From NCBI GenBank assembly GCA_013215565.1, contig JABSQV010000016.1, positions 1 to 64,000 on the forward strand: DNA of 64,000 nucleotides. The letters run 5' to 3'. This stretch comes from Myxococcales bacterium. GTDB lineage: Bacteria > Myxococcota_A > UBA9160 > SZUA-336. Shown piece by piece: positions 3,078-56,200 of this stretch; position 1 is the first letter of the stretch; each line of letters starts with the position of its first letter. Below the pieces are notes generated by a model. That model ran no database searches. It worked only from the letters and a program-made list of their open reading frames with translations, and was not told where the DNA came from. Position numbers and translations under genes: made by a program.

Positions 3078-4151
3078 TCAGAGAGCCCAGACAGCGAGCG
3101 CGATGAGCAACGCGATCCCGCCCAGCACCCCGCTTAGAACCCGCGGAAAATGCGGCTGAATCAGCAGCGGGTCAGAGGCAATGCTGCGCACGTCGAGCGC
3201 ATCCAGGCGACCCTCGGTCACAGCCTCGAGGTCCTCGAGGCACAGTTCCACCGAGATCTCCGCGTAGGCCTCACCGATCTCGCGTGACGCGATCGCGGGG
3301 GCGCCGTGGTAGGAGACGCGTCTGCCCCCGCGCCCGTAGCCGAAGCGCGAATTCAAAGCCCAGCCGACGCCACCCGCGAGGCTCTCCGCGACCAGCCGCG
3401 ACTGCGCCGCGCTCTCGGAGCGACCCAGTCGGGCGAGCCCGGCCGCAATCCAACTCCCGAGGCGCGCAATCGGCCAGAACTCGGGTGGCGCATCGGCGGG
3501 GAGCGATTTGAACTCAGGCGCGACCAGTTCCGGACGTTTCGCCAGGTACCACGAGGTCTCCCAGCCACCCGCGTGTTCGCCCGACAGCAGGCCCGCGCGT
3601 TCCGCCTCGCTCAGATCGCGTCCGATGCAGGCCTCGACGCGATCGAAGGCGAGACCCCGCGTCAACTGGTAGAGCGCCCGGATCGAGGGCGTGAACATGG
3701 AGATCCCGGAGCGGCGCGAGACCACGCGACACGCGGCCTCGAGTGCGGCCGCGTGGCGGGGACCCCCGTGCGCGTTCGTGAGCATCACGTAGCGAAAGCC
3801 GGCCCGGGCCAACTGCTCGCCGAATGCGCGCACCACCCGGTAGACGACCCGCGGCGGGGTGTTGATCGATCCCGCGAGTGGCAGCTCGTCGGTCCCGATC
3901 GGGAGCGGAGGAAAACGCACCGCGGTCCAGTCGGAACGCGGCTGCGTGAAGCGGCGGGCAGTCTCGTCCGCCATCCAGATGGCCTGGTGATAGTCGGACC
4001 CGATCGGAAGATGGGGGCCGTGAACCTCGAGCGCGCTGACCGCACAGAACGCGACGGTGCGATCGAGATCCAGGGCCTGGAGATCCAGCTGGGAAAGGGT
4101 GTCGGCGTCCCGGATCGTTCCCGACCCCGGGCTCTGCTCTGGCGCTTCCAT
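3078..4151 (-). CDS. Creatininase-family amidohydrolase with a C-terminal membrane anchor
   Basis: 357 residues from the ATG at 4151. The creatininase fold is shown by ALEVHGPHLPIGSDYHQA (metal-binding Glu/His/Asp), LPIGTDELPLAGSINTPP, NAHGGPRH and SGEHAGGWETSWYL. Family members hydrolyse cyclic or linear amides (creatinine, riboflavin-precursor formamides, or the mycofactocin peptide in MftE). No mycofactocin genes are visible here, so the substrate is open. The last 20 residues form a hydrophobic helix (SGVLGGIALLIALAVWAL), so the enzyme is probably tail-anchored in the inner membrane, which is unusual for the family. A start at 4193 is possible but would overlap the divergent epimerase gene. 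A TATTAT box ends 8 nt before the ATG, suggesting a leaderless mRNA. Confidence 0.85.
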   Translation of the reverse strand: MEAPEQSPGSGTIRDADTLSQLDLQALDLDRTVAFCAVSALEVHGPHLPIGSDYHQAIWMADETARRFTQPRSDWTAVRFPPLPIGTDELPLAGSINTPPRVVYRVVRAFGEQLARAGFRYVMLTNAHGGPRHAAALEAACRVVSRRSGISMFTPSIRALYQLTRGLAFDRVEACIGRDLSEAERAGLLSGEHAGGWETSWYLAKRPELVAPEFKSLPADAPPEFWPIARLGSWIAAGLARLGRSESAAQSRLVAESLAGGVGWALNSRFGYGRGGRRVSYHGAPAIASREIGEAYAEISVELCLEDLEAVTEGRLDALDVRSIASDPLLIQPHFPRVLSGVLGGIALLIALAVWAL

Positions 4152-4175
4152 AGGTCTGTATAATACCTCGCCGTG
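4149..4175. promoter_or_regulatory. Symmetric -10 element between two divergent, apparently leaderless genes
   Basis: The sequence TATAATA at 4159-4165 reads as a perfect TATAAT on the plus strand (4159-4164) and as TATTAT on the minus strand (4165-4160). Exactly 8 nt separate each -10 box from its start codon: GTG at 4173 on plus and ATG at 4151 on minus. No Shine-Dalgarno fits into either gap and I see no -35 match. Transcription from each box would be expected to start at or next to the start codon. Confidence 0.65.
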
Positions 4176-4568
4176 CTCAAACGAATTCATCACATCGGAA
4201 TCGTGGTCCCCGACCTCGACGCCGCCTACGGCTTCTGGCGCGACACGCTGGGGCTTGCCTTCGAGAAGGAGGCGACCGTCGTCGACCAGGGGGTGCGCGC
4301 GGCACTGCTCCGCTGCGGGGAGAGCGAGATCGAACTGCTCGAGCCAATCGACTCCAAAAGCGGCGTCGGCCGCTTTCTGGAACGGCGCGGCGGAGGCCTA
4401 CACCACATCTGCTTCGAAACCGACGACGTCGCAGCCGAACTCGAGGGCGCGCGCAAGCGCGGTCTCAGCCTGATCGACGAAGCGCCGCGCGCGGGGCTGG
4501 CGGGCCAGATCTGCTTCCTGCACCCGCGCTCCTGTGCGGGCGTGCTGGTGGAGTACGCCGAGCCGTGA
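4173..4568 (+). CDS. mce: Methylmalonyl-CoA epimerase (VOC superfamily)
   Basis: 131 residues, the normal length of the family. It interconverts (R)- and (S)-methylmalonyl-CoA in propionate and odd-chain or branched acyl-CoA breakdown. The family signatures are present: RIHHIGIVVPDLDAA (first metal His), EIELLEP, FLERRGGGLHHICFETDDV (second His) and GVLVEYAEP (metal Glu). The GTG start is used because the -10 box ends 8 nt upstream. The next gene overlaps by GTGA, and a MatB-like synthetase follows, so the operon looks devoted to methylmalonyl- or malonyl-CoA supply. Confidence 0.88.
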   Translation: MLKRIHHIGIVVPDLDAAYGFWRDTLGLAFEKEATVVDQGVRAALLRCGESEIELLEPIDSKSGVGRFLERRGGGLHHICFETDDVAAELEGARKRGLSLIDEAPRAGLAGQICFLHPRSCAGVLVEYAEP

Positions 4569-4915
4569 GCGAGCACGAGAACGGACTGCGCCTGGACGAG
4601 GTCCGCATCGCGGTCGACTCGGTCCCGGATGCGGCCCTGACCTTCGATCGCAACCTGGAGCTTCCGGGGCGACCCGAAGCCGGCGTCGTCCGGATTCCGA
4701 TCGGGGCCTCCGAGATCGTGCTCGAGTCCGCCAGCGAGGGCGAGCGGGCCGGGATGACGGGCTTGGTCCTGGGAACGCCCGACCTGGAGGCGCTGACGGC
4801 GCGACTCGAGGCCGCGGGCGTGCCCTTCGAGCGCGATGCGGACGGAGGCCTCCGGATCGCGGGCAGCGTCGCGAACGGCGCGCCTCTCGAGATCCGAGCC
4901 ACCCAGAAGACTTGA
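4565..4915 (+). CDS. VOC/glyoxalase-like protein lacking the usual metal ligands
   Basis: 116 residues from a GTG that overlaps the epimerase stop as GTGA. The pattern of alternating strands and the segment TGLVLGTPDLEALTARLEAAGVPFE are typical of the second half of a VOC (glyoxalase/bleomycin resistance) fold. The His and Glu metal ligands seen in the preceding epimerase are absent at the matching places, so it is probably non-catalytic or a binding/partner subunit. It overlaps the next gene by TTGA. It may be a degenerate tandem duplicate of the epimerase; the function is unknown. Confidence 0.65.
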   Translation: MSEHENGLRLDEVRIAVDSVPDAALTFDRNLELPGRPEAGVVRIPIGASEIVLESASEGERAGMTGLVLGTPDLEALTARLEAAGVPFERDADGGLRIAGSVANGAPLEIRATQKT

Positions 4916-21304: not shown

Positions 21305-22753
21305 ATGGACCGGTTCGCGTGCCTTTACGTACCCGACCTGCCCCTGGCGACCGCACTTCGCAACGAACCGGAGCTCCGCCACCGCGCACTCGCGATCGTC
21401 GACGGACCCACCATCGTCGCGGGCTGGCTGCAAGGCCTGACCGTCGCGCAGGCAGAGGCGGTCCGGTCCGACCTCGTCGTGCGCGCGCTCTCGCTGGAGG
21501 GCATTCACTCCGCGCAGGAAGCCCTGATCGACGTAGCGATTTCGGTGACGCCCCGGGTCGAGGAAAGCGAGACGGGTACCATCTTCCTCGACCTCGCGGG
21601 AACCGGCGCGATTTTTCCGAGCGAACGGGGCCTGCTCGGCGCCCTCGAAAAGCGGCTCGCAGAGGTGGGACTCGAGGGCGTCCGCATGGGCATCGGGCCG
21701 ACCTGCACGGTCGCGTGGCTTGCCGCACGCTGGCAGCACGGCGGTCAGATCGTCTCGTCGCACGGGACCAGGGGCTTTCTCGACCCCCTTCCCCTCGACC
21801 TGCTCGATCCTCCAGAGGAGACCTTCGACCTGCTCACGCGCTGGGGGATCCGAACGCTCGGGGAACTGCGACGAATCCCGGCGTCCTCCCTGGGGAGCCG
21901 CCTCGGAGAACCGACAGTCTGGCTCGCCCGCCGCGCGCGCGGCCAGGACCTGCGCCCCTTTCAACCCAAAAGCCCAAAACTGCGTTTCGAAGAAGGCGTC
22001 CAGATCGGCTTCCCGGTCGGAGACCTGGAGCGGCTCGCCTTCTTCTTGCGCGGGGTCGTCGACCGTCTGACCCGCCGGCTGCGCCTGCGTGGACTGGCCG
22101 TGCGCGAACTGCTGCTCGAACTGTTGCTCGAGAGCGGGCAAAACTTCGCGCGAACGGTGAAGACGGGCGCTCCGACCACCGAAGCGCCGGTGCTGGTTTC
22201 ACTCTTGCGGCTCGCGCTCGAGAAGGATCCGCCTCCGGAAGGGGTCGAGCGAATCCGTGTCGTCGCCGTGCCGGGCGGGGTCGAGCCTTCCCAACTCGAT
22301 CTGTTCCTGCCCCCGCTGCCCGCTCCCGCGGAACTCGCCGTCGCCGTGGCGCGGCTCGAGGCCCTGTGCGGGCCCGGAAAGGTGGGCGCCCCCTCCGTCG
22401 AAGACAGCCACCGGCCCGAAGCAAAGGGTCTAAACAGCTTCGCAGCCGGGCCCCGGGTCCTCCCGAAGTCCGCAGCGTTCTCCGGTCCCACGATGGCGCT
22501 GCGAGCCGTCCGTCCTCCGGAACAAATTCGCGCGTACGGAGCAGAGGGCCCACCCGTAAAGATCGAGTTCTCGGATCACCGGCGATTCCAGGTCCTTCAA
22601 CACGCCGGCCCGTGGCGCCTCTTCGGAGAGTGGTGGGGCGAGAGCTGCTTCGCGCGCGACTACTTCGATGTCGAACTCGGCGATGGGGGTGTCTACCGCA
22701 TCTACCGGAATCTCGATAACGGCCGCTGGTTCCTGGACGGAATCTATGACTAG
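21305..22753 (+). CDS. imuB: ImuB, inactive Y-family polymerase-like protein
   Basis: 482 residues. The Y-family palm and little-finger layout is visible: ACLYVPDLPLA at the start, IFLDLAGTG, GIGPTCTVAWLAA, LTRWGIRTLGELRRIPASSLGSRLG (helix-hairpin-helix), and a C-terminal domain. The acidic residues that polymerases need in the first motif are not in place, as in other ImuB proteins, which act as scaffolds between DnaE2 and the sliding clamp. QLDLF near residue 330 fits the clamp-binding pentapeptide QL(S/D)LF. Overlaps dnaE2 by 8 nt. Confidence 0.92.
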   Translation: MDRFACLYVPDLPLATALRNEPELRHRALAIVDGPTIVAGWLQGLTVAQAEAVRSDLVVRALSLEGIHSAQEALIDVAISVTPRVEESETGTIFLDLAGTGAIFPSERGLLGALEKRLAEVGLEGVRMGIGPTCTVAWLAARWQHGGQIVSSHGTRGFLDPLPLDLLDPPEETFDLLTRWGIRTLGELRRIPASSLGSRLGEPTVWLARRARGQDLRPFQPKSPKLRFEEGVQIGFPVGDLERLAFFLRGVVDRLTRRLRLRGLAVRELLLELLLESGQNFARTVKTGAPTTEAPVLVSLLRLALEKDPPPEGVERIRVVAVPGGVEPSQLDLFLPPLPAPAELAVAVARLEALCGPGKVGAPSVEDSHRPEAKGLNSFAAGPRVLPKSAAFSGPTMALRAVRPPEQIRAYGAEGPPVKIEFSDHRRFQVLQHAGPWRLFGEWWGESCFARDYFDVELGDGGVYRIYRNLDNGRWFLDGIYD

Positions 22754-25700
22754 CCCGCCCTATGTAGAACTCTGCACGCGCAGCGCGTTCAGCTTCCTCG
22801 AAGGCGCATCGCTGCCGGAAGATCTGGTCGAACGCGCGGCCGAACTGGGACACGGCACCCTCGCACTCTCCGATACCGATGGCCTCTCGGGAGCCCCGCG
22901 CTTTTACAAGCGGGGGAAGGCGCTCGGGGTGCGTACCCTGATCGGGGCGCGCGTGACACTGCAGGGGCCGGGACAACGCAGGCGCAAGAACGACCCGCCA
23001 CCGACTTCGGGGTCGGTGGTTCTGCTCAGTCGGGACCGGCGCGGATACCGAAATTTGTGTCGGATTCTCACGCTGGGACACGCGCCCTACCAGAAACCCT
23101 GGTCCCGGGTGCACATCCAGGACCTGCGCGAGTACGCGCAAGGCCTGGTCTGTCTCGTGCGCGACCCGCGACTCGCGGCTCCGATGCGCGAGATCTTTCG
23201 GTGCGATGCTTTCGCGGAAATCTGGAGGCACGCCGATCCCGACGAGGAACGCCTGAACCGTTCACTTCTCGCAACCGACCTGCCTCCGGTGGCGACCGGA
23301 GACGTCCGTCACGCAAGCCCGAAGGGAAAACGGCTGCTCGACGCTCTCAGTTGCCTCCGGCATAAAGTGACGCTCGCCTCCGCGGGGCGCCTGCTGCTTC
23401 CGAATGCGGAACGCCACCTGCGTTCGCCCCACGAGATGGCGGCACGTTTCCGCGATCTTCCCGAGGCACTGCACAACACGCTCGAGATCTCGGAGCGCTG
23501 CGAGTTCTCGCTCTGCGATCTCGGTTACGAGTTTCCCGACTTTGCCCTCGCTGCCGGTGAAACGCTGCCTCAAAAACTTCGGGAACTCACCGAACTCGGC
23601 GCGCGCGAGCGCGGGGGCGGCCGAATCTCGCCCGAGGCGCGCAGCCAGATCGATCACGAACTCGCCATGATCCGCCGACTCGGCCTCGAGGGTTACTTCC
23701 TGATCGTGTGGGACATCGTGCGCGAATGCCGGGCGCGCGGGATTCTGGCCCAGGGCCGCGGCTCGGCCGCGAACAGTCTGGTCTGCTACGCGCTCGGCAT
23801 CACGGCGATCGACCCGATCCGCTACGGACTGCTCTTCGAACGCTTCCTTTCAGAGGAGCGCGGCGAGTGGCCCGACATCGACATCGATCTCCCATCGGGA
23901 GATCGACGCGAGGAGATCCTGCAGTACGTCTACCGGCGCTACGGGCCCCACGGTGCCGGCATGACCGCCAACGTGATCAGCTACCGGCCGCGAAGCGCGG
24001 TGCGCGAGATGGGCAAGGTCCTCGGACTCGCGGGCGTACAGATCGACCGCCTGGCCCGACTGGTCTCCCGGCACGAGTACGTCGACGATCGCGACGCGCT
24101 CCGGCACCAGATCGAAAGGGGTGGGGTCGACCCGCGCGCACCCGTGATCCGACACCTGCTCCGCCTGGTCCGCGAGGTTCAGCACCTGCCCCGGCACCTC
24201 TCCCAGCACTCCGGCGGAATGGTGATCGCGAAGGGCCGTCTCGACGAACTGGTTCCGCTCGAACCGGCCCGCATGCCGAACCGAACCATCGTGCAGTGGG
24301 ACAAGGACGACTGCGCCGACATGGGCATCATCAAGATCGACCTGCTCGGACTCGGCATGCTGGCGGTGCTCGAGGAAGTGATCCCGCTGATCCGGGAACA
24401 CGACGGCGTCGAGGTCGATCTGGCAAAGCTCCCGGCAGACGATCCCCGAACCTACGAGATGCTCCGGCGAGCCGACACCGTCGGGGTATTCCAGGTCGAG
24501 AGCCGCGCCCAGATGGCCACCCTGCCTCGCATGCAGCCCCGCTGCTTTTACGACCTGGTCGTCGAGGTCGCCATCATTCGGCCCGGCCCGATCGTGGGCA
24601 ACATGGTGCAGCCCTATTTGAAACGCCGGGCGGGTCGCGAGCCTGTGAGCTACGCGCACCCGGACCTGGCACCGATCCTGGAGCGGACCCTGGGCGTCCC
24701 GATCTTCCAGGAGCAGCTCCTGCGAATCGCCATGACCGTCGCCGGTTTCAGCGGGGGCGAAGCCGAGGAGCTTCGGCGCGCCATGGGCTTCAAGCGCTCG
24801 GTCGAACGCATGCGCGCAATCGAGGCGAAGCTCCTGGCCGGGATGCGCGAGCACGGCATTGACCGGGCGACCCGGGGCGAGATCGTGAAGCAGGTTACGG
24901 CCTTCGCGCTCTACGGATTTCCGGAGAGCCACGCCGCGAGCTTCGCGCTGTTGGCCTACGCGTCCGCCTACCTGCGCGCACACCACCACGCCTGTTTTCT
25001 CGCGGCCATGCTCAACTGCTACCCGCTCGGCTTCTACAGCCCCGCGACGCTGGTCAAGGACGCGCAGCGGCACGGCGTCCGGGTGCTTCCCATCTGCGTG
25101 CAGCAGAGCGACTGGCCCTGCCTCATCGAGCGCCAGACCGACGGCCAAAACGGCGTCCGCCTCGGCCTTCGCTACGCCGAAGGACTCCGGGAGGCCGCGG
25201 GACGCAGGATCGAGACAGCCCGTCCCTTCGCCTCGACCGGAGACCTGGCCCATCGGGCCGACCTGCACCGCGACGAACTCGCCCGGCTCGCCGAGATCGG
25301 TGCCTGCGCGAAGCTCGGCCTGGAACGGCGCGCGGCGCTGTGGCAGGTCTCGTCCGTACAGCAGGGGCTACTCGCGGGCGCCGTCTCGGAAACGCCCTCT
25401 CCGCTCGCAGAGATGACCCCGTTCGAACAGACGCTGGCCGATTACCGGGGCACCGGCATCACGACCGGGCCCCACCTGGTTTCACACCTGCGACCCGAGC
25501 TCCGGCGCCGCGGGGTCCGCTCGGCGAGCGAGCTTCGGGACCTGCCCGACGGTCAGTGGGTCCGCACCGCGGGCGTCGTGATCGTGCGCCAGCGTCCGGC
25601 CACCGCAAAGGGGTTTCTGTTCATGACGCTCGAAGACGAGACCGGAACCTCGAACAGCATCGTGCTCCCGGACCTCTTCGAACGGCAGCGGGCACTGCTG

Positions 25701-25835
25701 CAGACCGCGGGACTGCTCCTGGTCGAAGGCCCGCTCCAGAACCAGGAGGGGGTCATTCACGTGCGCGTCCGCCGCCTGGAGTCCCTGGATCACGCGACCC
25801 GGGACGAACTGCCCCGCTCGCATGACTTTCGTTAG
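22746..25835 (+). CDS. dnaE2: Error-prone DNA polymerase DnaE2
   Basis: 1029 residues from the ATG at 22746, inside the 3' end of imuB. PHP domain at the N terminus (ALSDTDGLSGAPRFYKR), polymerase core with AQGRGSAANSLVCYALGIT and the catalytic PDIDIDLPSGDRREEI, a QWDKDDCADMGIIKIDLLGLG region, the ELRRAMGFKRSVERM segment, and FPESHAASFALLAYASAYLRAHH, which distinguishes DnaE-type polymerases. C-terminal OB domain from about residue 930. It performs translesion synthesis with ImuA and ImuB. Length fits DnaE2 rather than the longer replicative DnaE1. Confidence 0.95.
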   Translation: MTSPPYVELCTRSAFSFLEGASLPEDLVERAAELGHGTLALSDTDGLSGAPRFYKRGKALGVRTLIGARVTLQGPGQRRRKNDPPPTSGSVVLLSRDRRGYRNLCRILTLGHAPYQKPWSRVHIQDLREYAQGLVCLVRDPRLAAPMREIFRCDAFAEIWRHADPDEERLNRSLLATDLPPVATGDVRHASPKGKRLLDALSCLRHKVTLASAGRLLLPNAERHLRSPHEMAARFRDLPEALHNTLEISERCEFSLCDLGYEFPDFALAAGETLPQKLRELTELGARERGGGRISPEARSQIDHELAMIRRLGLEGYFLIVWDIVRECRARGILAQGRGSAANSLVCYALGITAIDPIRYGLLFERFLSEERGEWPDIDIDLPSGDRREEILQYVYRRYGPHGAGMTANVISYRPRSAVREMGKVLGLAGVQIDRLARLVSRHEYVDDRDALRHQIERGGVDPRAPVIRHLLRLVREVQHLPRHLSQHSGGMVIAKGRLDELVPLEPARMPNRTIVQWDKDDCADMGIIKIDLLGLGMLAVLEEVIPLIREHDGVEVDLAKLPADDPRTYEMLRRADTVGVFQVESRAQMATLPRMQPRCFYDLVVEVAIIRPGPIVGNMVQPYLKRRAGREPVSYAHPDLAPILERTLGVPIFQEQLLRIAMTVAGFSGGEAEELRRAMGFKRSVERMRAIEAKLLAGMREHGIDRATRGEIVKQVTAFALYGFPESHAASFALLAYASAYLRAHHHACFLAAMLNCYPLGFYSPATLVKDAQRHGVRVLPICVQQSDWPCLIERQTDGQNGVRLGLRYAEGLREAAGRRIETARPFASTGDLAHRADLHRDELARLAEIGACAKLGLERRAALWQVSSVQQGLLAGAVSETPSPLAEMTPFEQTLADYRGTGITTGPHLVSHLRPELRRRGVRSASELRDLPDGQWVRTAGVVIVRQRPATAKGFLFMTLEDETGTSNSIVLPDLFERQRALLQTAGLLLVEGPLQNQEGVIHVRVRRLESLDHATRDELPRSHDFR

Positions 25836-52957: not shown

Positions 52958-53161
52958 ATGGCTGAGGGAGCAAGGATTCTCGAAACCGTCGCAGCGCCCC
53001 CGAACCCCGCACACACGATCACCCTGCTGGACCTGGTCGCGGCGGTCGCGGATCAAGCAGAATCGGAGGCCGAGGTGATCGCCACGGTGAGCCACCTGAT
53101 CAATTCCGGGCGCGTCCGGCTGGTTGGCAACTTCCGCGGAGCGGACGTCCTCACACACTGA
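52958..53161 (+). CDS. Small conserved-looking protein heading the topoisomerase VI operon
   Basis: 67 residues from the ATG at 52958; AAGGAG lies 10 nt upstream and GGAG nearer. The C-terminal half, ITLLDLVAAVADQAESEAEVIATVSHLINSGRVRLVGNF, is a compact helix-strand unit that looks like a small winged-helix-like fold. I recall similar short hypothetical proteins in deltaproteobacteria but cannot name a family. It precedes the topoisomerase VI B subunit by 37 nt, so it may be co-transcribed and linked to it. Confidence 0.65.
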   Translation: MAEGARILETVAAPPNPAHTITLLDLVAAVADQAESEAEVIATVSHLINSGRVRLVGNFRGADVLTH

Positions 53162-53172
53162 CGCTATCTTGC

Positions 53173-53189
53173 ACCCCCTGCGCGGGGGT
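53173..53189 (+). repeat. Short perfect hairpin between the 67-residue gene and topoisomerase VI B
   Basis: ACCCCC (53173-53178) pairs with GGGGGT (53184-53189) around TGCGC. It starts 12 nt after the small gene's stop and ends just before the GAGGGAG of the next gene. It may be an attenuator or an mRNA-processing point that sets the ratio of the small protein to the topoisomerase. Confidence 0.45.
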
Positions 53190-53198
53190 CGAGGGAGC

Positions 53199-54944
53199 AT
53201 GTCAGAGAGCCAGAGGTCGCTGCCCCTGGAGCCGGCAGCGCCGCGGCGCGCCTCGATCCGGGCCGGTCGCGGCCGCAAGTCGACCTTGAAGGGTTCCCGC
53301 CGAAAAGGCTCCGCCGCGAGCCCCAAGTCCGCCGGGCCGGCTCGCGCACCCGAGAAGCGGGCCCGGGGATCCCGGAATTCCGAAGGTTCCTCGGCTGAAC
53401 AGATGGCCCACCGCCAGCGGGACATCTCGGTCTCGGAGTTTTTCGCCAAGAACCGCCATCTCCTGGGGTTCGACAATCCTGCCAAGGCGCTCCTCACTAC
53501 GGTGAAGGAGTTGGTGGACAACGCGCTCGACGCTTCCGACGAGGCGCGCCTCCCCGCAGAGGTCGAGATCCGGATCGATCAGCTTGCTGAGGATCGCTTC
53601 CGCGTGATCTGCACCGACCACGGACCGGGCATCGTCGCACGCAACGTGCCCTCCGTATTCGGGAAGCTGCTCTTCGGTTCGAAGTTTCATCGGCTCAAGA
53701 TGAGCCGCGGCCAGCAGGGGATCGGAGTGAGCGCGGCCGGCATGTACGGCCTGCTGACGACCGGCCATCCGGTCCGCGTGATCTCCCGGACCTCGGCGAA
53801 GAAGCCAGCGCACCGCTTCGAGATCGCGATCGACACCCAGAAGAATCGCCCGGCCGTCAAGCAGGACGACGAGGTCGAGTGGGAGCTGGAGCACGGCACC
53901 CGCGTCGAGATCGAACTCGAGGCGAGCTACCGCAAGGGCCAGCACTCGGCCGACGCCTACATTCTACAGATCTCACTTGCGAACCCGCATGCGACGATCC
54001 GCTACCTGGGCCCGGGACGCGAGAACGACGAGAGCCCGACAGTCTACGAACGTGTCACTACGGAGCTTCCGCCCGAAACGGCCGAGATCAAGCCCCATCC
54101 CTATGGGGTCGAACTCGGGATCCTGATGCAGCTGCTGCGCGAATCGAAGAACCGGAATCTCTCGGGCCTGCTCGTCAGTCAGTTCAGCCGCGTTACGACG
54201 CGCACGGCGAACGAGATCTGCAAGGCGGCCGGGATCTCGAGCTCGCGACGGCCTACGGCAATGGACCGCGCCGAGGCGGAGGCGCTGCATCGCGGGATCG
54301 CCAAATCCAAGATCATGGCCCCGCCGACCGATTGCATCGCTCCGATCGGCGAAGAACTCCTCGCGCGGGCCCTCTCGACGATTCACGCCTGCGACTTCCA
54401 GACGGCCGTCACGCGCCGGCCCGCCGTCTACAGGGGCAATCCCTTTCTGATCGAAGTGGCACTTGCGTGGGGCGGAGAGCTGAGCGCCGAGGACCCGGCC
54501 ACCGTGTACCGCTACGCGAACCGCGTGCCGCTTCAGTATCAGCAGGGGGCCTGCGCGATCACGCGCGCGGTCTCGATGACCGACTGGAAGAAGTACGGAC
54601 TCCAGCAACCCCGCGGCGCAGCGCCGCTGGGACCCGTCGTGGTCATGGTTCACATTGCGAGCGTGTGGGTTCCGTTCACGTCGGAGTCTAAGGAAGCCAT
54701 CGCGCACTATCCCGAGATCATCAGAGAGATCAAACTCGCCCTACAGGACTGCGGTCGGCGTTTGGGTCAGCATCTGCGGCGGCGGCGGCGCGAGGCGGAC
54801 GAGGTCAAGAAGCAGGACTACATCAAGAAATACATCCCACACGTCGTGCAAGCACTGAAGGCGATCCTGGACCTTTCGGACAAGGAGACGCAGCAGACCG
54901 TCGTGACCCTGACCCAGATCCTCGAGCGCAGCCGGAAGCTCTGA
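53199..54944 (+). CDS. top6B: DNA topoisomerase VI subunit B (with a basic N-terminal tail)
   Basis: 581 residues from the ATG at 53199 with GAGGGAG before it. The GHKL ATPase is clear: KELVDNALDASDEARLP (N-box), RVICTDHGPGIV (G1), and GQQGIGVSAAGMYGLLTTG (G2). A transducer region with VTMTDWKKYGLQQPRG-like residues follows, and a long coiled C-terminal helix (RRRREADEVKKQDYIKKYIPHV). Residues 1-65 are an additional Arg/Lys/Ser-rich tail not found in archaeal subunits. Together with the A subunit (TGATG overlap) it forms a type IIB ATP-dependent double-strand topoisomerase, rare in bacteria. Confidence 0.93.
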   Translation: MSESQRSLPLEPAAPRRASIRAGRGRKSTLKGSRRKGSAASPKSAGPARAPEKRARGSRNSEGSSAEQMAHRQRDISVSEFFAKNRHLLGFDNPAKALLTTVKELVDNALDASDEARLPAEVEIRIDQLAEDRFRVICTDHGPGIVARNVPSVFGKLLFGSKFHRLKMSRGQQGIGVSAAGMYGLLTTGHPVRVISRTSAKKPAHRFEIAIDTQKNRPAVKQDDEVEWELEHGTRVEIELEASYRKGQHSADAYILQISLANPHATIRYLGPGRENDESPTVYERVTTELPPETAEIKPHPYGVELGILMQLLRESKNRNLSGLLVSQFSRVTTRTANEICKAAGISSSRRPTAMDRAEAEALHRGIAKSKIMAPPTDCIAPIGEELLARALSTIHACDFQTAVTRRPAVYRGNPFLIEVALAWGGELSAEDPATVYRYANRVPLQYQQGACAITRAVSMTDWKKYGLQQPRGAAPLGPVVVMVHIASVWVPFTSESKEAIAHYPEIIREIKLALQDCGRRLGQHLRRRRREADEVKKQDYIKKYIPHVVQALKAILDLSDKETQQTVVTLTQILERSRKL

Positions 54945-56200
54945 TGGGTACCCGGCGCAAGACGGCAGCGAAGAAGACGGCGCGAAAGAAGGGCGTGACC
55001 AAGAAAGCGCCGCGCAAGAAGAGCACGGCGAAGACGACCCGGAGCAAGAAGACCGTACGCGCACGGAGGAGCACGGCAGCAAAACCGCTCGAACGACGGG
55101 TCCATGCCACCGACGAAGAAACGATCGAACAGATCACCTCGACCGCCAGGGGCGTCCACCAGACGATCCGTAAGGGCAACCGACCCGACCTATCGCTCCC
55201 GGTACGGGCTCTCTCCAACGTCTCCTACGACGGCCGGGGCGGATACCTGGAGATCGGGCGTCAAAAGAAGACCCGGACGCTGTCCGTGAACACCGTCAAG
55301 AATTTTGCCCAGACGCTCAAGATGATGGCGCTCTCCAAGGATCTCGTGCAGGAAAACGATTTCGCGACCAAGCGAGAGGCCTATTACATCTCGAAGAACT
55401 GGGAAGAGACGAAGTTCGACGAACAGATCGAGTCCGACACGGTGATGGACGATATCGAGGCGCTCTTCAGCGTTCACGCGATCAACCGAGAGCAACTCCG
55501 CTTCTATCCGGAAGAACACGGCGGCTCGGTTTCGGGCCCGCTGGTGGTCAGCGACCGGGACGCGACCGGGCGAGTCGCGCGCATCGACTGCGCCAACTTC
55601 GGCTCCGGCGCCTACTCCATTCCAGCCTCGGTCGAGGACCTCGAGTTCGAAACCAGCGCCGACTTCGTACTGCTCGTGGAAACCGCCGGGATGTTCCAGC
55701 GCCTGCAGTCCCATCGCTTCTGGGAAAGCTCCAACTGCATCTTGGTCGAGATGAAGGGCGTACCCGCCCGCGCGGTGCGCCGCTTCGTGCGCCGCCTCGC
55801 GGACGAAGCACGCCTCCCGGTCTACGTGTTCGTCGACTGCGACCCCTACGGCATCGCCAACATCTACCGGACACTCAAGGTCGGCTCGGGCTCTTCCGCC
55901 CACATCAACAAGTTCTTCTGCGTCCCGAGTGCACGTTTTCTGGGGGTGACACCCCAGGATATCGTGGACTACGAACTGCCGACGCACCCGCTCAAGGAGG
56001 TCGACATCAAGCGCGCCAGGGATGCGCTCAAGAACGACCCCTTCTTCAAGAGCCATCTCCAGTGGCGGAAGGCGCTCGAGCAGTTGATCAAGATGGGCGT
56101 CCGGGCCGAGCAGCAGGCCCTGGCGATGTGGGGCCTCAACTACGTGATCGAAGAATATCTGCCCGCAAAGCTCGAACAGCCCGACCGCTTCCTGCCCTAG
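54944..56200 (+). CDS. top6A: DNA topoisomerase VI subunit A (Spo11-like) with a histone-H1-like N-terminal tail
   Basis: 418 residues. Residues 1-50 are almost only Lys, Arg, Ala, Thr and Ser (GTRRKTAAKKTARKK), like a bacterial histone-H1-type tail. The DNA-cleaving domain has the catalytic Tyr in ATKREAYYISK (Y147 or Y148). The Toprim domain has FVLLVETAGMF (Glu) and YVFVDCDPYGIANIYRTLK (DxD). The C-terminal residues match the archaeal subunit. It breaks both strands of DNA, coupled to B-subunit ATP use. The tails of both subunits suggest extra DNA binding specific to this lineage. Confidence 0.93.
   Translation: MGTRRKTAAKKTARKKGVTKKAPRKKSTAKTTRSKKTVRARRSTAAKPLERRVHATDEETIEQITSTARGVHQTIRKGNRPDLSLPVRALSNVSYDGRGGYLEIGRQKKTRTLSVNTVKNFAQTLKMMALSKDLVQENDFATKREAYYISKNWEETKFDEQIESDTVMDDIEALFSVHAINREQLRFYPEEHGGSVSGPLVVSDRDATGRVARIDCANFGSGAYSIPASVEDLEFETSADFVLLVETAGMFQRLQSHRFWESSNCILVEMKGVPARAVRRFVRRLADEARLPVYVFVDCDPYGIANIYRTLKVGSGSSAHINKFFCVPSARFLGVTPQDIVDYELPTHPLKEVDIKRARDALKNDPFFKSHLQWRKALEQLIKMGVRAEQQALAMWGLNYVIEEYLPAKLEQPDRFLP

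Follow-up and report, generated by a model that had tools for sequence, protein, structure and literature searches.

A symmetric TATAATA element as a candidate bidirectional promoter for two putatively leaderless genes in a Myxococcales bacterium

The 21 bp between a methylmalonyl-CoA epimerase gene and a divergent creatininase-family gene, in a 64-kb stretch of a Myxococcales genome (hereafter the window), probably form a bidirectional, doubly leaderless promoter of the sigma-70 type, reduced to one symmetric −10 element, TATAATA. We put the probability of this reading at roughly two in three. RNA polymerase would bind either way round, through TATAAT or through TATTAT, with the −11A and −7T of the two boxes pairing with each other across the strands, and RNA would begin no more than about 3 nt away from each start codon. 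The epimerase operon mRNA on the plus strand and the creatininase-family mRNA on the minus strand would then be leaderless or nearly so, and would be translated without a Shine-Dalgarno sequence. Because only one polymerase at a time could occupy the site, the two directions should compete. The reading is supported by a genome-wide peak of TANNNT boxes close before start codons, by the reciprocal 18-bp geometry of the locus, by the lack of a rival promoter pair nearby, and by seven compact divergent pairs elsewhere. The features of the locus are collected in Table 1.

Table 1. Genes and predicted promoter features around the 21-bp spacer (window coordinates)
Feature	Position	Strand	Basis
Creatininase-family protein, 357 aa, ATG start	3078-4151	−	PF02633, E 3e-32
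Predicted transcription start region; A of ATG 4151 is the first purine 6-9 nt past −7T	4151-4153	−	Inferred
21-bp spacer, the entire intergenic region	4152-4172		Sequence; geometry as published
TATAAT, predicted −10 element for the plus gene	4159-4164	+	Sequence; 8 nt (4165-4172) before GTG 4173
TATTAT, predicted −10 element for the minus gene	4160-4165 (read 4165-4160)	−	Sequence; 8 nt (4159-4152) before ATG 4151
Predicted transcription start region; G4170 or G4173 (first base of GTG)	4170-4173	+	Inferred; pyrimidine-purine steps 6-9 nt past −7T
Methylmalonyl-CoA epimerase, 131 aa, GTG start	4173-4568	+	TIGR03081 above cut-off; orthologues with the same start
Small overlapping frame, 116 aa	4565-4915	+	Open frame 3' of epimerase
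Acyl-CoA synthetase, 459 aa	4912-6291	+	PF00501/PF13193; 57-63% identical relatives in the same family

Inspection of positions 4149-4175 revealed the order CAT AGGTCTG TATAATA CCTCGCC GTG. The two boxes have 5 bp in common within the 7-base TATAATA, and A4160 and T4164 stand at −11 and −7 on one strand and at −7 and −11 on the other. The original prediction had given the positions of the boxes, their five-base overlap, the gap of 8 nt on each side and the 21-bp spacer, all of which are correct to the base. It had also claimed that there is no space for a Shine-Dalgarno sequence between the start codons; none was found in the spacer, which is too short for a leader, as would be the case for leaderless genes. 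A search of 3900-4450 for a sigma-70 −35/−10 pair found none.

We then considered how common such start sites are in this genome. For this purpose, 1.63 Mb of the 3.8-Mb genome were read, and 1,168 genes were called by a codon-based script. For 104 of 1,165 predicted starts, a TANNNT box ended 6-9 nt upstream, compared with 16.4 expected from positions further upstream, an enrichment of about 6-fold. Shine-Dalgarno-like motifs preceded 12 of these 104 starts, whereas they preceded 510 of the 1,061 others (Fisher 5e-14). No −35 signal was found in the set of 104, and G stood at −14 in 66% of it. From the enrichment of TANNNT, the small number of Shine-Dalgarno sequences and the lack of a −35 signal, a predicted class of leaderless genes in this genome is well supported, and promoters of this type would serve roughly 7-8% of its genes. 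Neither a TANNNT box nor a Shine-Dalgarno sequence was carried by 551 of the 1,165 predicted starts, a count that is inflated by errors in start choice. Loci from other genomes of the class showed the same peak at gaps of 6-9 nt, with 14 cases against an expected 2.2; in a small sample taken from the rest of the phylum it was not clear (2 against 0.9 expected).

The locus, with its gap of 8 nt on both sides, falls within this peak, which is beyond chance genome-wide. When a model of the leaderless box was built without the locus, its plus and minus starts ranked 71 and 91 of 1,165. G at −14 is present for the minus box; the plus box is without the −14G typical of the class. The earlier claim that both genes are leaderless drew good support at genome scale from the enrichment of the box, its large exclusivity towards Shine-Dalgarno sequences and the missing −35 signal, and the 5' ends are predicted to lie at or next to the start codons.

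The spacer was also compared with bidirectional promoters that have been described. In these, divergent start sites lie 7-25 bp apart, most often 18 bp, a separation of about 23 bp forms another common class, and the −7T and −11A of each box are base-paired with the −11A and −7T of the opposing one (PMC10268837, PMC12825309). At our locus, canonical starts are predicted at 4171 (+) and 4153 (−), a separation of 18 bp, and suitable pyrimidine-purine steps fall on the first bases of GTG and ATG (4173 and 4151), which are 22 bp apart, and on G4170. Reciprocal −7T/−11A at A4160/T4164 is combined with predicted starts 18 bp (canonical) or 22 bp (at the start codons) apart. The bidirectional promoters of E. 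coli and Salmonella reported by the Grainger laboratory (PMC10268837, PMC12825309) are alike in having one near-symmetric −10 element with reciprocal −7T/−11A and canonical starts 18 bp apart, between divergent genes. Those promoters were demonstrated by start-site mapping, whereas our locus is known from its sequence alone, and neither paper uses the word "leaderless". Accordance with this geometry and recurrence in related genomes, described below, add to the claim of bidirectionality; promoter use in both directions is what that sequence predicts.

One part of the original prediction went too far. It had called the exact mirror spacing striking, but TATAAT is nearly its own reverse complement, and a single A after it creates the opposing TATTAT, and likewise an opposing TANNNT, so that the opposing box comes almost free. 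Because of this near-palindrome, the mirrored boxes and their matching gaps cannot be counted as separate facts; what is informative is the coincidence of a second start codon on the other strand within the right 4-nt window. TATAAT occurs once in the window and 23 times on both strands of the 1.63 Mb, and TATAATA-N8-TG occurs once in the whole genome, as does a control pattern. Random 21-mers of upstream composition carried TANNNT at a gap of 6-9 nt on both sides with a probability of 0.0024, and among 167 neighbouring divergent pairs in the 1.63 Mb, only 6 are separated by 0-30 bp. A symmetric box is uncommon in this genome, since A follows only 7 of the 104 leaderless-type boxes against a background of 21%, and this locus, counted once for each strand, supplies two of the seven. 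Double-box divergent pairs are not in excess in this genome: 3 were observed, where about 5 would be predicted if the boxes were independent.

Another candidate bidirectional leaderless promoter was seen in the same genome (L116, contig C138, 7754-7776), between genes for a luciferase-like oxidoreductase (−) and a Gfo/Idh-type oxidoreductase (+). TAGGCT lies 7 nt from the ATG of the former and TATCAT 6 nt from the GTG of the latter; the predicted starts are about 23 bp apart, and the minus start is ambiguous.

The alternative that survives best is a leaderless promoter for one gene only, with the opposing box as a by-product of the near-palindromic −10 and the promoter of the other gene elsewhere. 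The automatic appearance of TATTAT when A follows TATAAT fits such a one-way promoter, and so does the scarcity of A after the box, as if most boxes worked one way. The epimerase operon, with its consensus TATAAT, would then be the likelier user. We nevertheless regard this as unlikely, because the minus start codon, too, has its box at a preferred gap and no Shine-Dalgarno sequence, the minus box carries the −14G that is frequent in the class, and no other promoter-like pair was present in the region searched. It is less likely still that TATAATA is no promoter, and that both genes are transcribed from within the opposing gene with 5' leaders that have no Shine-Dalgarno sequence. About 16 of the 104 boxes at gaps of 6-9 nt are expected by chance, and the 551 starts with neither signal, to whose number start-choice errors add, speak for it; however, both sides would need to be chance, TATAAT is rare in the genome, and no alternative promoter-like site lies nearby.

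The epimerase start at GTG 4173 is secure, because the TAA within TATAAT is an in-frame stop for the epimerase frame and the orthologues L061-L068, 63-73% identical, begin at the same residue. The small frame 3' of it, which matched nothing in Pfam or NCBIfam, is probably in one operon with the epimerase. For the creatininase-family gene, codon statistics picked ATG 4151 as the best start, which favours this codon and does not prove it. The minus frame is open up to 4193, which would give 371 aa, but a start at ATG 4190 or GTG 4193, with the minus box inside the coding sequence and only the plus gene leaderless, is very improbable in view of the codon statistics, the creatininase homology that begins 17-31 residues after ATG 4151, and the overlap of about 20 bp that the longer form would have with the epimerase gene. 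In three outside epimerase orthologues (L061-L063), TTGCCG and a TA-box (TAAAGT, TAGATT) were observed 11-19 nt before ATG, and the promoter upstream of the epimerase there differs from the one in the window.

To see whether start codons flank a single box in other genomes, we searched 91 genomes of the class for TANNNTA with start codons to its left and right. At a distance of 6 nt in both directions (a 17-bp spacer), 9 of 30 readable sites had long coding-like frames on both sides, and seven of the nine, from other genera of the class, were accepted after protein inspection (L254, L256, L257, L260, L263, L273, and L274). A control with 4 nt on each side, which should not work, gave 0 of 18. 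The one-sided P for 6/6 against the 4/4 control was 0.028 for 7/30 and 0.0085 for 9/30. The control is imperfect, since something other than promoter function might also make spacers of 13 bp scarce. Sites of wrong spacing and the ORF test were used in this way in place of a reversed-pattern control, which was unsuitable because backward reading alters the fit to coding frames. In every accepted pair but L273, the orthologue of L274, Pfam confirmed one side or both; the identities of the plus partners in L257, L260, and L263 were assigned by eye. L258 was rejected despite passing the automatic ORF test, as its minus frame had no Pfam match, and L277 was set aside for an ambiguous plus start.

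L273 and L274 are orthologous pairs from one genus, with proteins 69% and 80% identical, and they have equal spacer length and an unchanged TA...TA core. This shared length and core is weak evidence for the element, as the spacer as a whole is not more conserved than the coding DNA (71% vs 78%). It is the 6/6 spacing that recurs in the class; the 8/8 spacing of our locus is rare there, and only 2 of 13 such sites, our locus included, passed the ORF test. Two species of one genus also carry spacers of 19 bp that are almost the same in sequence, with TATCATA and a gap of 7 nt to its left and right (G082:C130:8350-8374 and G031:C45:5611-5635). As a tentative and rather doubtful generalization, the class may repeatedly pack divergent genes round one TANNNTA, with 17-21 bp between start codons, as a minimal switch between two genes: a single −10 would make up the entire promoter for both leaderless mRNAs, and the gene expressed would depend on which way round the polymerase binds.

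The history of the locus was examined in relatives. The creatininase/epimerase pair was found in none of the fetched loci of the class or the outside epimerase loci, no close epimerase orthologue was present in the class or phylum samples, and no relative was seen to have this spacer between these genes. The best relatives of the epimerase come from outside the phylum sample, with up to 73% identity in MAGs labelled Proteobacteria or Deltaproteobacteria, compared with at most 51% in the phylum. In the family member G003 (L234), a homologue of the gene at 2011-2487 (57% identical) adjoins the acyl-CoA synthetase gene with no creatininase or epimerase between; the block missing there between the same flanking genes is 3078-4915, that is, creatininase, epimerase and the small frame. 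Because the flanking genes of G003 adjoin without the pair and the best epimerase relatives are outside the phylum sample, the block was probably acquired by insertion, and the promoter is probably young at its present place. A probable insertion agrees with the published excess of bidirectional promoters in horizontally acquired DNA (PMC10268837, PMC12825309). Contamination of the contig was rejected as an explanation, since the relatives of the acyl-CoA synthetase in the family make the contig fit the genome.

Counted against the bidirectional, doubly leaderless promoter are the almost free opposing box, the 3 rather than about 5 double-box pairs, the plus box without −14G, the unconserved gene pair, and the rare 8/8 spacing. 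Its leaderless side resembles the TANNNT genes of Zheng et al. (PMC3160421) and the −10-motif genes of Deinococcus (PMC12340547), in which the box lies about 12 bp before the start; the gap of 6-9 nt and the lack of a Shine-Dalgarno sequence and of a −35 signal are the same. Text searches of these two papers gave no mention of divergent or bidirectional use, whereas here one box would serve two genes. The archaeal bidirectional TATA element of Pyrococcus furiosus PF1918 (PMC6640164) is likewise one symmetric element used on both strands, but it belongs to a TBP/TATA system, has starts 49 bp apart, and makes an antisense RNA, not two leaderless genes.

Elsewhere in the window, two adjacent genes at 53124-56200 (+) look, by eye, as if they encode subunits B and A of DNA topoisomerase VI, an enzyme unusual in bacteria. 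An ImuB-like Y-family polymerase gene followed by a DnaE2-like error-prone polymerase gene, a mutasome-type cassette, was likewise seen by eye at 21305-25835 (+).

Both components of the proposed promoter, the bidirectional promoter and the leaderless mRNA, are already known; the literature found, which did not include the data of the original 2021 bidirectional-promoter paper, has no description of the two fully overlapping within 21 bp. If the reading is true, a control region for two genes could hardly be smaller than this spacer, and the same 21 bp would set the direction of transcription as well as the initiation of translation. It would join the literatures on bidirectional promoters and on leaderless mRNAs, which are rarely found together in full-text searches, and the recurrent 17-bp version would provide a simple test set for how the polymerase chooses its direction.
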